Below are positions 14,435-34,075 of a stretch of 35,826 nt of DNA, one piece after another. Source of the stretch: a virus; IMG/VR virus record IMGVR_UViG_3300042888_002884, positions 1 to 35,826 of that record, one strand, 5' to 3'. Each line of letters begins with the position of its first letter. Within the stretch, counting starts at the first letter, position 1. The notes below the pieces were generated by a model. It was not told the DNA's origin, did not search any database, and saw only the letters and a program-made list of their open reading frames with translations. A program made the translations under genes and the position numbers.

Positions 14435-15250
14435 CTAAATATATCTGAATTCATCGTAAAACCAACTAAAGTTTTGTCTAACCCAATTTGATGCGTTTAC
14501 ACCTAAAACTTCTTTATAATCGTTCTTAACTGGAGTTAATTTAGATTTTATTACGTGATCACCATATATCCCATAAACGGAATCATCTTCTTGTGTTATT
14601 TGCTCAATATTATCAAAATCGTGTTGATAATATGGTACATCTAAATATGTATAAATCCTTTTCATTTCCTGTTCAGGGAACCTACACAAATCTTCAAATT
14701 TAACAAACAACATTTTTTTATTAATACCCTCTTTTAATACCTGATATAATCTTTCCATTGCCAAACCAACTGGTTGTCCTTGTGTCCAAATATCTATTCT
14801 TTTTTCAGTTGTTGTTCCTTGCATTTGAGCATGATCAACAATACCGGAATCTAAATGTTGATTTTTCCTAAAGTTTTTTTCCATTGATGCGTATATTGAT
14901 CTCGGATCTCTTATCATACAAACAACTTTTGGTTCAGGATAAAAAGTTTCCAAAAACCCATAATGAATACCCCAACCTCTTGATTTATCCATCACATATT
15001 TTTTGTCTGTTATTGCGTTAAAATACGATTCAACACCACCTTTACAAAAAGCCGTAAAACCTTTTTTCATTAATTCAGCATCTTGTGCTTTAAATTCTGG
15101 TGAGTTCGTGTAATTGGCTCTTGATGCATATACTAATTCTAATACACCTGATGTTGGTGTTACATAAAAATCAGGGTTTTGTCCCATTATATTTTGAATA
15201 AGGGTTGAACCACTTCTAGGTAATGAACTTTGAAAGAATATTTTTTCCAT
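14435..15250 (-). CDS. PAPS-dependent sulfotransferase, copy 1
   Basis: 271 residues. The N-terminal strand-loop FFQSSLPRSGSTLIQNIM contains the 5'-phosphosulfate-binding loop PRSGSTL (11-17), and CMIRDPRSIYASMEK (111-125) is the 3'-phosphate-binding segment. Together these are the signature of the cytosolic/Stf0-type sulfotransferase superfamily, which transfers sulfate from PAPS to hydroxyl or amino groups of sugars, peptides or small molecules. No membrane anchor is visible, so it acts in the cytoplasm of the infected cell. Its start overlaps the stop of the GT9-like gene as TAATG at 15250, implying coupled synthesis and a shared glycan substrate (inference). It is a clear paralogue of the protein at 33257-34075: PTSGV, FKAQD, KSRGW and ASMEKN are shared in the same order. 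Confidence 0.9.
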   Translation of the reverse strand: MEKIFFQSSLPRSGSTLIQNIMGQNPDFYVTPTSGVLELVYASRANYTNSPEFKAQDAELMKKGFTAFCKGGVESYFNAITDKKYVMDKSRGWGIHYGFLETFYPEPKVVCMIRDPRSIYASMEKNFRKNQHLDSGIVDHAQMQGTTTEKRIDIWTQGQPVGLAMERLYQVLKEGINKKMLFVKFEDLCRFPEQEMKRIYTYLDVPYYQHDFDNIEQITQEDDSVYGIYGDHVIKSKLTPVKNDYKEVLGVNASNWVRQNFSWFYDEFRYI

Positions 15251-16134
15251 TATTGTTGATTATTTATTGAGTAAATTATTGATTCCATATCAAATATATT
15301 AAAATCCATTAAAGGACATTCGTGGAATACACCATTGAAACTAAAATCAAATAAATAACTATCCGGTAATTTAATACTGTCATTAATAACCGCTGTAAAA
15401 TTATCGTGAATATCGTGTCCAAATAATTTTGGTGATGTTCCAATCCATAATACTGTTGATTTTTTATTTAGAGCAGCTGCTGCGTGTTGTAAACAACTAT
15501 CAATTAAAATTCTTTTTTGACTTACTAACATTAATGAAAACAATTCCATATTTGACATCGCTTCTGTTACGTGTTCACATCCAGGTATTTTATTTTCTTC
15601 ATGCCTACATATTTGAATAATATGGTAATCTTTAGAATAGTGATTTACTAATGCTTCGGCTACAGGGTAAGGAATATCTCTTGTCCAAGAATAAGGAAAA
15701 TCTTGTTGTAATGGACCTCCGTTTGTTTGTATAACCATAACTGGTTTTTCCCTTGTCCATTTTTTGTAACCGTGTTGTAATTGTCTTACGTTGAAAATTA
15801 ATTCAGGTTGTTCACCTAAATAATCTAAACCATATAACGAACACCAATTTTCAATAAGAGGAAGTTTTTTACCGATATGATCTGTGGTAAAATAAGGTTC
15901 GTGTTTAAATATTAAAGTGTCTTGGTCTTTAATATAATCTTGATAAAAGTAAGGAGTGTTACCCATTCTAAAAACTTTACCAATAAAGTTTAGATTTAAG
16001 AATATTTCAGGGTATGCACATACTACAAGAAGCTCTCTGTCGGGATGATTATTTTTTATACATTTTGCGACTGCGGTGGCGGCAACGTGCTTACCTAAAC
16101 CACCTTCTATGTGAAATAAAGCGTATTTTTTCAT
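15250..16134 (-). CDS. GT9-like (heptosyltransferase-type) glycosyltransferase
   Basis: 294 residues. It starts MKKYALFHIEGGLGKHVAAT, with the GGLGKH loop as in the N-terminal Rossmann domain of GT-B enzymes. The C-terminal domain has IDSCLQHAAAALNKKSTVLW followed by IGTSPKLFGH (211-240), equivalent to the GT9 nucleotide-sugar site (D-S-x-x-x-H-x-A-A... G-x-x-x-P). Family members add heptose or similar sugars to lipopolysaccharide core or to proteins; donor and acceptor here are unknown. Phage relatives may glycosylate virion proteins or host surface sugars. It overlaps the sulfotransferase start by one base pair of codons. Its leader carries a 14-base sequence that is also found in front of the APS-kinase-like gene. 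Confidence 0.75.
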   Translation of the reverse strand: MKKYALFHIEGGLGKHVAATAVAKCIKNNHPDRELLVVCAYPEIFLNLNFIGKVFRMGNTPYFYQDYIKDQDTLIFKHEPYFTTDHIGKKLPLIENWCSLYGLDYLGEQPELIFNVRQLQHGYKKWTREKPVMVIQTNGGPLQQDFPYSWTRDIPYPVAEALVNHYSKDYHIIQICRHEENKIPGCEHVTEAMSNMELFSLMLVSQKRILIDSCLQHAAAALNKKSTVLWIGTSPKLFGHDIHDNFTAVINDSIKLPDSYLFDFSFNGVFHECPLMDFNIFDMESIIYSINNQQ

Positions 16135-30819: not shown

Positions 30820-31596
30820 TTAGATTGAATACTTTGTTTTAGTTGAATTGAAATTGTCTATAACTTCAGACTGTGATAGTCCCCTTGTGTAAAAATAACA
30901 AGCACCTATTTTTCCGTTTAAATAAAGCGATGATATACCACTACCTATAAATCCTAAATAAAGTGGATTTGTTTCGTTATAACCATCAGAACCATGCGCT
31001 GTTGTTATATATTCAACACCATTTATATAACACTTGGTTGTGTTTAAAGTTGATGTTATTTGTGATATAAATGTAAATAAATACCAAATATCGGTTGTTA
31101 CGGTTAATGTTGAATTGGATATCCTTTGAACTCCAGTACCATTAGTTACTGTTCTTATAATACCACCATTTGAAAATAAACCACCCCAATAACCATCAAA
31201 ACCAAACGAACTTGATAACTTACCAAACACAGGTATTTGTTGATTTAAACTACCCAAAGCATCTAATTTAACCCAAACTTGTATGGTTCTTTGTGTTGTG
31301 GTATTTAAACTTAAATTTGATGTATGGGGTATTAATATATTATCGTTAATACCATCCAAATCAAATATACCACCATCTGTTGATAACCAAGTAGCTCCGT
31401 TTATTGTTGCATTATTTCCATTTGATGTTTCATCTAACCAAGATCCACTAACATAATTGGATGCATCTAATTTCATAAACAACCCATTTGTTATTACATC
31501 ACCTGAAGGTGATGGTGGTATTTCACCACCAATTGAACTTGTTTTGATTTTTAAATTACCCCTAATGATTGTATTGTTTCGTATAATAATTCCCAT
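30820..31596 (-). CDS. LamG/concanavalin-like jelly-roll protein, probable glycan-binding fibre part
   Basis: 258 residues. After a short N-terminal segment (MGIIIRNNTIIRGNLKIKTS) comes a single LamG-like domain: GLFMKLDASNYVSGSWLDET, GGIFDLDGINDNILIPHTSN, RTIQVWVKLDALGSLNQQIP, TKCYINGVEYI, LYLNGKIGACYFYTRGLSQS. The order DASN...W.D.S..GN / F.G.dD.I.I / T.q.W.k / Y.NG / I(G/A).v.iYnR.Ls..E is the classic concanavalin A-like/LamG pattern. Such domains bind carbohydrates, often as phage receptor-binding modules. It lies downstream of the DUF2061 gene in the same orientation, so it belongs to the sulfation gene cluster and may itself be the surface-binding partner of the modified glycan (inference). 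Confidence 0.8.
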   Translation of the reverse strand: MGIIIRNNTIIRGNLKIKTSSIGGEIPPSPSGDVITNGLFMKLDASNYVSGSWLDETSNGNNATINGATWLSTDGGIFDLDGINDNILIPHTSNLSLNTTTQRTIQVWVKLDALGSLNQQIPVFGKLSSSFGFDGYWGGLFSNGGIIRTVTNGTGVQRISNSTLTVTTDIWYLFTFISQITSTLNTTKCYINGVEYITTAHGSDGYNETNPLYLGFIGSGISSLYLNGKIGACYFYTRGLSQSEVIDNFNSTKTKYSI

Positions 31597-31611
31597 TATA
31601 CTTATAAATAC

Positions 31612-32037
31612 TTATTTTATTTTTATATGTTTATACCAAACTCTTTCGTGTAAAAAATATAATACAGGTTTTAATGCCAACTCACCCACACCTAACATAG
31701 AAGCCATAGCTATTGGTGCTCCTAAAGTATAAGCCACCACTACCGTTGTTAAAGTTCCTAAAAATCTATATGAAATAGTTTTTAATAAGTGTCTTTTAAA
31801 TGCAGAACCCTTCGGTGGTGTTACTATATAAGCAATTCCATCTTTAATAACACAATCACCTTTACAAGTAATATGCCATTTATACCCTAAACCATCCATA
31901 TGATCTTTTGTCGTATAAACTTCACCATCAATAAAAACATCTGAAACTAATGTTTCCCTACCATTTTCATCAACCAACCTCCATCTTTCATTTTCCGTTA
32001 TTGATGTAGTATTAAACCTAATTTTATAAGTTTTCAT
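31612..32037 (-). CDS. DUF2061-type membrane protein with N-terminal beta domain
   Basis: 141 residues. The N-terminal ~75 residues form a small beta-rich domain (ENERWRLVDENGRETLVSDV). From KTISYRFLGTLTTVVVAYTL (86-105) to ELALKPVLYFLHERVWYKHI (119-138) it matches DUF2061 (PF09834-type), a short two-span membrane family seen beside sulfate-assimilation genes (CysC/CysN-type) in bacteria and phages. It starts in the stop codon of the nucleotidyltransferase as TAATG at 32037, so the two are co-translated. A role in sulfate or PAPS handling at the membrane is suggested by genomic association, not shown. Confidence 0.8.
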   Translation of the reverse strand: MKTYKIRFNTTSITENERWRLVDENGRETLVSDVFIDGEVYTTKDHMDGLGYKWHITCKGDCVIKDGIAYIVTPPKGSAFKRHLLKTISYRFLGTLTTVVVAYTLGAPIAMASMLGVGELALKPVLYFLHERVWYKHIKIK

Positions 32038-32441
32038 TATAATTTACCCTCAGATCTTAATTCTTCTCTAATTTTTGTTGCTGAAATATTAGCGATATCT
32101 AATGGTGGTAAATGTTCAATAATATCATATCCAACACCTCTACCAAACTCAACTGAACAAATATCAGGTATTACCATTACTTTTACTTTACCTTCTGATA
32201 CTTCATTTGAATAATGGTTTAAGATATTTGTTTTTACTTCTTCAGCAGAATATGGATTTTTTTCATCAGGTTTAATATCTCTAATACAGATTAGAATATT
32301 CTTACCTTCATTCATTGCTTGTTGAAATAATTCTTGATGTCCTTTATGTAATGGTTGCCATCTACCAATAAACATTGCGTGTTGTCCTTCTTTACGTTCT
32401 AATGATGACTGAACGTGTACTTTTTTATACCAATCCGACAT
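32037..32441 (-). CDS. HxGH nucleotidyltransferase of the cytidylyltransferase-like superfamily
   Basis: 134 residues. The signature MFIGRWQPLHKGHQELFQQA contains H-K-G-H (32-35), and NISATKIREEL (118-128) is the second motif (I-S-x-T-x-I-R) of nucleotidylyltransferases. A short FGRGVGY at 99-105 recalls the G-R-D-x-x-G-x-x loop of ATP sulfurylase. These proteins transfer a nucleotidyl group from NTP to an acceptor (phosphocholine, NMN, sulfate and others). The gene overlaps the APS-kinase-like gene by 17 bases, upstream, and the DUF2061 gene by TAATG, downstream. That context suggests the formation of APS (ATP + sulfate) or of a nucleotide-sugar. The acceptor cannot be decided from sequence alone. 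Confidence 0.75.
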   Translation of the reverse strand: MSDWYKKVHVQSSLERKEGQHAMFIGRWQPLHKGHQELFQQAMNEGKNILICIRDIKPDEKNPYSAEEVKTNILNHYSNEVSEGKVKVMVIPDICSVEFGRGVGYDIIEHLPPLDIANISATKIREELRSEGKL

Positions 32442-32880
32442 ATTCTATAATCTCCTTTATACATTCTTCGGGTGTAATATTTGTTGTATCCATATCTAAA
32501 TAATTTGATACAGGTTTCTGAAAATCCTCAACGTGGAATTGTTCTCTACCTCTTATTTCTGTTGTATGAACATATACTTCAAAAACACCTTCCGTATTTT
32601 TCTTAAACTCTTCTCTAATTTCCCTATAAGGTGTCATAAGAGATACCACAACGTGATAACCTTTATTTTGTAAATATTTAGCAATTACTTGAGCATTTCT
32701 AATATTTTGTTCTCTACCTGTCCTTGAATAATCTTTATTTATTGTAAGATTTCTAAGATCATCACCATCAATATGAAATACATTATTACTTGCTGTCATA
32801 TCAATGTGTTCTTCTAATAATTTAGCCAAGACAGTTTTACCGTGTCCTGCTTGTCCGATTAACCATATAATTTTTGTCAT
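32425..32880 (-). CDS. cysC: APS-kinase-like (CysC-type) P-loop kinase
   Basis: 151 residues versus about 200 in bacterial CysC. It begins MTKIIWLIGQAGHGKTVLAK, with Walker A GQAGHGKT (9-16), then VFHIDGDDLRNLT (34-46; D-G-D-x-x-R as in CysC), SRTGREQNIRNAQVIAKYL (52-70, the R-x-x-N-I-R helix) and VVVSLMTPYREIREEFKK (77-94; the P-Y-R-x-x-R loop). CysC phosphorylates APS at 3'-OH to give PAPS, the donor for sulfotransferases. The region that follows differs: the CysC K-G-L-Y lid is replaced by IRGREQFHVEDF, so substrate range may differ. Overlaps the nucleotidyltransferase gene by 17 bases. Soluble and cytoplasmic. Confidence 0.8.
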   Translation of the reverse strand: MTKIIWLIGQAGHGKTVLAKLLEEHIDMTASNNVFHIDGDDLRNLTINKDYSRTGREQNIRNAQVIAKYLQNKGYHVVVSLMTPYREIREEFKKNTEGVFEVYVHTTEIRGREQFHVEDFQKPVSNYLDMDTTNITPEECIKEIIEYVGLV

Positions 32881-32890
32881 ATGGTTAATA
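32877..32890 (-). promoter_or_regulatory. Shared leader element TATTAACCATATGA (copy 2)
   Basis: The start codon of the APS-kinase-like gene is embedded in the same 14-mer as the GT9-like start at 16131-16144. See that entry. Confidence 0.35.
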
Positions 32891-32973
32891 ATAAGAATAA
32901 TTATTTATTTAATAAAGATTTGATATATATAATTTTTTAAACCAATATACCTTAACTTTTTATTAAAAAGTTA

Positions 32974-33234
32974 TTAGGCTTTATAATTATTACCGTCTAC
33001 AATACTACTATTAATATTTGTTTTTTGCTGTGTAGTCAATGCTGTACTAAACCAATCTTTTGATAACATTAAAGATAAATGCTCTACATTAGATTTAACG
33101 GTTTTTTCTTTTTTTTCATCAAACGGTTCAGATGTAATTGAATTAATTAAGTTTACCGAATCAAATGCTGCGTTGATTGAGTTATTAACTTGTTCTTCAG
33201 TTTTTGTTTCTAATTGAAATTGTGGTGTTTCCAT
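32974..33234 (-). CDS. Hypothetical small protein, 86 aa
   Basis: 86 residues starting METPQFQLETKTEEQVNNSI. Segments KTVKSNVEHLSLMLSKDWFS and ALTTQQKTNINSSIVDGNNY have a helix-turn-helix-like rhythm, with a pattern (V-K-x-N-V-E-H-L-x-x-M-x-x-K-D-W-F) I recall from other marine phage proteins of unknown function. The likely fold is helical. The gene is separated by 93 bases from the APS-kinase-like start and by 22 bases from the sulfotransferase 2 stop, so it is part of the same minus-strand unit. No function assigned. Confidence 0.6.
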   Translation of the reverse strand: METPQFQLETKTEEQVNNSINAAFDSVNLINSITSEPFDEKKEKTVKSNVEHLSLMLSKDWFSTALTTQQKTNINSSIVDGNNYKA

Positions 33235-33256
33235 TTTGTTTTTTTATTATTTTAAA

Positions 33257-34075
33257 TTATACGTAATTGAATTTTTTAAAGTACCAATTATAATGATTTT
33301 CTAATCTTTCACATTCTTCTTCTCCTAATACTTCTATAAAATCATCAACTAATGGTTTTAATGTTGGTTGAATGGTATGATTACCGAACATACCGTGAAT
33401 AACATCATTTTCTTGAGTTAATTGCTCAATATTATTAAAGTTATGTGAATAAAATGGTATTTCTAAATAATCATATATTTTTTTAAGTTCGGCTTCTGGT
33501 TTTGTTGTTAAATCTTCAAAACGAATAAACAATATTTTCTTATCTAACCCTTGATGTATGACTTCATTTAACCATTCTACCGAAGGTCCTATAGGAGGGG
33601 CAACTGAAAAATGATCTATTCTTGATTTAGTAGTCATATTTTTTAATTCTACATTATTAACTATCATTGAATCCTTATCTGGATTTTTTCTCATATTTTT
33701 TTCCATAGAAGCGAAGATAGCTCTTAAATCACGAACCATACAAATCATTTTAACATCATCGTTAAAAAATTTAATAAAATCGTAATGACCTAACCAACCT
33801 CTACTTTTTTCCATAACATATGGTCTGTCTGTTATGTTATCAAAAAATCCGTGAATTCCAGCTTTACAAAATCCCTTAAATCCTTGTTTCATTACTTCTG
33901 GGTCTTGGGCTTTGAAAGCATCTCCTGTAGTGTAAATTGTTCTAGCATTTAAAAGAAATTCAATTACTCCTGATGTTGGTGTTGAATAAATTTCTGGGTT
34001 CTGCATTAATATATTTTGAATTAATGTAGAACCGGCTCTTGGCATTGATGAGTTAAAAAATATTTGTTTTGTCAT
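33257..34075 (-). CDS. PAPS-dependent sulfotransferase, copy 2
   Basis: 272 residues. FFNSSMPRAGSTLIQNILMQ has the PAPS phosphosulfate-binding loop PRAGSTL (12-18); ICMVRDLRAIFASMEKNMRK is the 3'-phosphate-binding segment (111-130). Paralogue of the protein at 14435-15250: conserved TPTSGV, FKAQD, GF...FCK.G, ITD..YVM.KSRGW..HY, ASMEKN, LF(V/I)(K/R)FEDL and GN/GD-H near the end are in the same order, with clear divergence elsewhere (acceptor-side loops), so the two probably use different acceptors. It lies upstream of the APS-kinase-like, nucleotidyltransferase and DUF2061 genes in the same orientation, with a small gene between them. Confidence 0.9.
   Translation of the reverse strand: MTKQIFFNSSMPRAGSTLIQNILMQNPEIYSTPTSGVIEFLLNARTIYTTGDAFKAQDPEVMKQGFKGFCKAGIHGFFDNITDRPYVMEKSRGWLGHYDFIKFFNDDVKMICMVRDLRAIFASMEKNMRKNPDKDSMIVNNVELKNMTTKSRIDHFSVAPPIGPSVEWLNEVIHQGLDKKILFIRFEDLTTKPEAELKKIYDYLEIPFYSHNFNNIEQLTQENDVIHGMFGNHTIQPTLKPLVDDFIEVLGEEECERLENHYNWYFKKFNYV

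Follow-up and report, generated by a model that had tools for sequence, protein, structure and literature searches.

A putative phage sulfation cassette with a candidate minimal ATP sulfurylase of the HxGH nucleotidyltransferase type

Can a phage activate sulfate by itself and use it to modify a glycan or one of its own proteins? This question is raised by a group of genes in the virus record IMGVR_UViG_3300042888_002884 of IMG/VR, which was analysed over its whole length of 35,826 nucleotides (35.8 kb, hereafter the window). The phage is a myovirus, with genes for the tail sheath, tail tube, head protease and a T4-type major head protein. The genes of interest lie amid virion genes, all on the minus strand, and encode a predicted sulfotransferase (ST), a short kinase resembling adenosine 5'-phosphosulfate (APS) kinases (KIN), a nucleotidyltransferase with an HxGH motif (NT) and a protein with a DUF2061 membrane domain. 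The initial annotation had proposed that the phage makes its own 3'-phosphoadenosine 5'-phosphosulfate (PAPS) and uses it through a sulfotransferase, and this proposal is now strongly supported by synteny, invariant PAPS motifs, the APS-kinase fold, fusions of APS kinase to NT and sulfation clusters in cellular genomes. We consider it quite probable that the phage has in this cassette a self-contained module for sulfation, in which NT would act as a minimal, non-orthologous ATP sulfurylase and KIN as a short-lid APS kinase, together supplying PAPS for the sulfation of a glycan or a virion protein.

Gene order in the window and in other viruses

The cassette includes the genes of ST (33257..34075, 272 aa), KIN (32425..32880, 151 aa), NT (32037..32441, 134 aa) and a two-domain protein (31612..32037) composed of a small domain, ND (residues 4-71), and the DUF2061 domain (residues 84-134). 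Open reading frame (ORF) and Pfam searches agree on the presence, place and single orientation of the genes first named here. The overlap of 17 bases between KIN and NT (32425-32441) is exact in the sequence, as are the one-base TAATG couplings at 32037, between NT and the DUF2061 protein, and at 15250, between a second sulfotransferase (ST2) and a putative glycosyltransferase.

A scan of IMG/VR with NT gave 455 confirmed relatives. We read 82 viral contigs with NT, 53 of which are well flanked, with 4 kb or more on each side of the gene. A KIN-family kinase adjoins NT in 82/82 contigs, and among the well-flanked ones DUF2061 is found near NT in 48, an ST of the window family in 39 and a glycosyltransferase-like gene in 35. 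Seen from the side of KIN, NT is present in 47 of 48 loci, and in a second NT lineage the kinase accompanies it in 55/58. Because the gene order of the window recurs in dozens of contigs, the set is far beyond chance. The proposed unit of five genes holds for ST, KIN, NT and DUF2061, which are syntenic across viruses, but not for the LamG-like gene that had been counted as its fifth member.

From the side of ST, 34 of 60 loci have KIN or NT within 8 kb and 26 have neither, whereas a glycosyltransferase-like homologue is found within the same distance in 48. The initial annotation had regarded the occurrence of these genes singly, in unrelated contexts, as an argument against a common function; such an occurrence was found for the ST homologues, but the KIN-NT pair is nearly inseparable.

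Predicted enzymes and accessory genes

ST scores above the gathering cut-offs of two sulfotransferase families (PF13469, E 4e-16; PF00685, E 3e-14), and its matches to PDB profiles are tyrosylprotein and other PAPS sulfotransferases. It keeps both PAPS-binding motifs, the 5'-phosphosulfate-binding PRAGST and the 3'-phosphate-binding R115...S123; in an alignment with 24 relatives PRxGST, R115 and S123 are invariant. Together with the family scores these motifs bear out its description as a PAPS-type enzyme. ST2 (14435..15250, minus strand, 271 aa; PF13469, E 1e-20) is 49% identical to ST in alignment and is, as first suggested, its paralogue. From their sequences, both proteins may use PAPS to sulfate an acceptor. 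An iterated profile built from viral ST proteins missed several cellular sulfotransferases, and the Pfam models were used in its place.

The kinase had been described as a CysC-like P-loop protein, and this was confirmed by its score against the APS_kinase family PF01583 (E 5e-18, 66 bits against a gathering cut-off of 21.1) and by its predicted structure. The AlphaFold model, with a predicted local distance difference test (pLDDT) score of 91, has APS kinases as all of its best PDB matches, at template modelling (TM) scores of 0.8-0.9. KIN keeps the GxxxxGKT P-loop, DGDxxR, GRxxNI and PYR / P(Y)R. The P-loop, DGDxxR and the R..N pair within GRxxNI, which binds APS in APS kinases, are conserved in canonical CysC as well. 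Judging from sequence and model, KIN is most likely a short-lid APS kinase.

NT is recognized by PF01467 (E 1e-6) and carries the motifs GRWQPLHKGH and ISATKIR, in agreement with its designation as an HxGH nucleotidyltransferase. Single viral ORFs that join a canonical APS kinase to NT were found in two contigs (L339, 358 aa; L341, 349 aa; PF01583, E 1e-66), and in another ORF of 299 aa (L191/L334) NT is fused to KIN. Since each of the two kinases occurs fused to NT, KIN can be exchanged for canonical CysC as the partner of this protein, and the fusion of APS kinase and NT copies the plan of PAPS synthetase. In a further contig (L326:7000-8500) the NT ORF is preceded in frame by what seems to be the C-terminal end of a canonical APS kinase, whose upstream part is not in an open frame; DUF2061 follows, and the arrangement looks like a CysC-NT fusion that has decayed or was misassembled.

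The DUF2061 protein was correctly noticed as a membrane protein coupled to NT by TAATG, its domain scoring well above the PF09834 cut-off (E 6e-15, 56 against 23.1 bits). That DUF2061 is found beside genes of sulfate assimilation could also be verified: in a classical operon (L138) with the order cysD-cysN-DUF2061-cysC-cysQ it stands between cysN and cysC, and the link to sulfate activation is therefore real. Its role is a matter of guesswork, for which we may propose sulfate entry or docking to the membrane. ND, of about 68 aa and with no match in Pfam, is specific to the cassette and modular, being fused to DUF2061, standing alone between KIN and NT, or following NT (window, L022, L042, L046, L015, L028, L067 and L090). 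Several phages have a short HAD-like phosphatase between KIN and NT (L010:6734-7084, L019:9623-9991, L038:9664-10017) which, if we may guess by analogy with CysQ, could remove the by-product 3'-phosphoadenosine 5'-phosphate.

Cellular homologues, proposed pathway and rival explanations

When one genome per species was scanned, NT turned up in Flavobacteriales and in metagenome-assembled genomes (MAGs) of Thermodesulfobacteriota. Among 398 Flavobacteriales genomes eight carry NT, with scores above 160 bits, while all the others remain below 31 bits, at the background of other nucleotidyltransferases. In all eight a full-length canonical apsK lies immediately upstream of NT, and the downstream genes encode a CysQ-like inositol-phosphatase, a flippase and several sulfotransferases; the last were seen in seven loci, the contig of the eighth ending early. 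Neither CysD nor Sat was found in any of these eight carriers, whereas CysD is present in 134/136 NT-negative genomes with apsK (Fisher p 1e-11). The same exclusion was seen in the class of G002 (Thermodesulfobacteriota), where 0/33 NT-positive genomes against 18/25 NT-negative ones have Sat or CysD; a strong APS kinase was present in 4/4 of the NT-positive members tested. The NT-positive genomes with apsK need APS, yet they show no known enzyme for its formation. An unrooted tree of 57 NT sequences places the cellular genes, with moderate support, in two clades inside the diversity of the viral ones, and it is possible that NT passed from viruses to cells. One further sequence falls amid the phage type: a contig binned as bacterial, from a Crocinitomicaceae MAG (L090), has the phage-type series of KIN, NT and small domain, after which come a gene resembling an ABC-transporter ATPase and two sulfotransferase genes.

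Because its carriers lack CysD and Sat, it is linked to apsK and it is fused to APS kinases, the simplest reading of NT is that of a sulfate adenylyltransferase. In the proposed pathway NT, as an ATP sulfurylase with the NadM/HxGH core and a length of about 134 aa, would adenylylate sulfate with ATP, giving APS and pyrophosphate. KIN, to judge by its family, fold and fusions, would then phosphorylate the 3'-OH of APS to give PAPS. Finally ST, and ST2 with its glycosyltransferase-like partner, would move the sulfate from PAPS to an acceptor, as their family and motifs suggest. With the evidence on NT pointing to sulfate adenylylation, the unit would be self-contained. The target may be a glycan or a virion protein, most likely a glycan, carried by either the host surface or the virion. 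The genes near the cassette include epimerases, GDP-mannose dehydratase, UDP-sugar dehydrogenases and glycosyltransferases, and in one viral contig (L362:7998-8738) NT is fused to the C-terminal (cupin) domain of mannose-6-phosphate isomerase; these also point to glycans.

We therefore regard it as likely that NT adds to CysDN and Sat a third class of ATP sulfurylase, some 134-158 aa long and widespread in viruses, which was possibly handed by them to Flavobacteriales and Thermodesulfobacteriota in replacement of the classical enzymes, and which with KIN makes up an unusually small PAPS unit feeding phage sulfotransferases.

Several observations weigh against this interpretation. NT stays below the cut-off of the Sat family PF01747 (19.7 against 24.3 bits), and in fold it has weak matches, the best being to NadM/PPAT. 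The motif QxRN before HxxH binds sulfate in ATP sulfurylases; all NT proteins have GRxQP at that place, so that their sulfate site would be a new one. KIN is itself below the apsK equivalog cut-off TIGR00455 (69.4 against 138.7 bits), and most of the lid DPKGLYKKAR...FTGI, some 14-18 residues, is missing in all the KIN proteins shown. No ST of the window family lies near NT in 14 of the 53 well-flanked viral loci; some of these have another sulfotransferase family (PF03567 in L038) or an ST elsewhere on the contig. In Thermodesulfobacteriota NT is not adjacent to cysC. Lastly, the cellular genes other than that of L090 form two clades, so that the p-values suggest more independence than there is, roughly two replacement events lying behind them, and no completeness figures are given for the genomes.

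The resemblance of NT to NadM-type NMN adenylyltransferases suggests a different division of labour, in which APS comes from CysDN of the host and is converted by KIN, leaving NT to some other job such as the adenylylation of nicotinamide mononucleotide (NMN) for NAD salvage. By sequence and by fold these enzymes are indeed its nearest known relatives (best PDB matches, among them MJ0541 and 2qjt), sharing GRxQPxHxGH and SxTxxR, and NadR-like pairs of kinase and NMN adenylyltransferase do exist. However, NT falls far short of the curated cut-offs of all the NadM-type models listed (28.2 against 181.2 bits for the equivalog TIGR01527), has an invariant IPDxxS..GRGVGY segment of its own, and is about 22 residues shorter in its acceptor region, 39 residues separating the nucleotide motif from SATxIR against 61 in MJ0541. 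Moreover it follows cysC in clusters with sulfotransferases, is fused to canonical APS kinase and stands in for CysDN or Sat in two cellular groups. NadR-like salvage was rejected on this linkage, these fusions and this mutual exclusion, and we judge such a role for NT to be unlikely.

Less probable still, and in our opinion very unlikely, is that kinase and NT make another donor, such as a 3'-phosphorylated CDP-phosphoramidate, for transfer by the sulfotransferase-like enzymes. This compound has been proposed for Cj1415-1416 of Campylobacter, where a CysC-like kinase occurs with a nucleotidyltransferase and transferases. In Flavobacteriales and in the viral fusions, however, the partner of NT is canonical apsK and not only the divergent kinase, and both DUF2061 and the CysQ-like phosphatase are marks of sulfate activation. 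The listed gene maps showed no partner resembling a glutamine kinase, although no search was aimed at one. The cassette could also be taken for auxiliary metabolic genes of assimilatory sulfate reduction, which is how viral cysC and cysH are read in two published studies (PMC9529941, PMC10914622). This has the smallest probability of all and was rejected: in 160 cassette loci no CysH-like motif was found by a motif scan, which is not a profile search, and no CysD homologue by homology search, whereas sulfotransferases and sugar-nucleotide enzymes recur there.

Neighbouring genes and known systems

The gene coupled to ST2 (15250..16134, minus strand) encodes a putative glycosyltransferase with a GGLGK N-terminus and is a partner of ST genes. 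Its earlier label as GT9-like could not be upheld, the score being below the PF01075 cut-off (E 0.03, 14 against 22 bits) with no match to a PDB profile, which leaves its identity as a GT9 heptosyltransferase unsupported. Between ST and KIN there is an ORF of 86 aa (32974..33234, minus strand) with no family match that had been overlooked; phmmer homologues adjoin ST in close relatives (L003, L017, L051, L056 and others), and the counterpart beside the sulfotransferase of L051 (8411-8683) likewise matches no family. The LamG-like gene (30820..31596, minus strand; PF13385, E 5e-14) belongs to the virion structural family phrog_8510 and probably encodes a virion or tail protein. It was rejected as a part of the cassette, being grouped with the neighbouring virion genes and having a different gene at its position in the relative L008.

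Sulfotransferases of cyanophages and marine phages are already known (phrog_27463; S-SRM01, S-SKS1, S-SCSM1) and belong to the family of the window ST, with which they are 25-30% identical. They differ in their context: INPHARED searches gave few and distant matches, and among these no single record was shared between the matches of ST and those of KIN or NT. Two cultured phages, of Stenotrophomonas and Clavibacter (L087, L088), have kinase-NT fusion proteins (phrog_10255) with no sulfotransferase annotated nearby, which are too distant from the window genes to interpret. Neither the cassette nor an HxGH ATP sulfurylase was described in the literature that we searched, which left most subscription papers and preprints outside.

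The viral cysC genes already reported also encode APS kinase homologues, but they are described as auxiliary genes of assimilatory sulfate reduction and, in the parts of the reports consulted, no NT or sulfotransferase partner is mentioned (PMC9529941, PMC10914622). If the sulfation module proposed here is real, phages would run a complete sulfation chemistry and the reading of many viral "cysC" genes would shift from sulfur assimilation to the modification of glycans or virions.

Two types of enzyme, CysDN and Sat, are known to activate sulfate; a third and much smaller one, if true, would be a surprise that is easy to test. The CysDN/CysC operons of Bacteroidota share with the NT loci the genes for CysC, DUF2061 and CysQ-like proteins (L138), with NT in the place of cysDN, although the NT-bearing genomes have neither CysD nor Sat; for bacteria that have an APS kinase and no known source of APS, NT is thus a predicted ATP sulfurylase. 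The closest parallel in design is with PAPSS1/2 and the bacterial ATP sulfurylase-APS kinase (2gks), which also combine an APS kinase with a sulfate-activating nucleotidyltransferase. The viral fusions are kinase-first as in human PAPSS, and the fold of KIN matches the kinase domains of these proteins, whereas the proposed activating domain of the cassette is an HxGH protein of 134-158 aa which fails the Sat cut-off and is much too small to be the complete enzyme.

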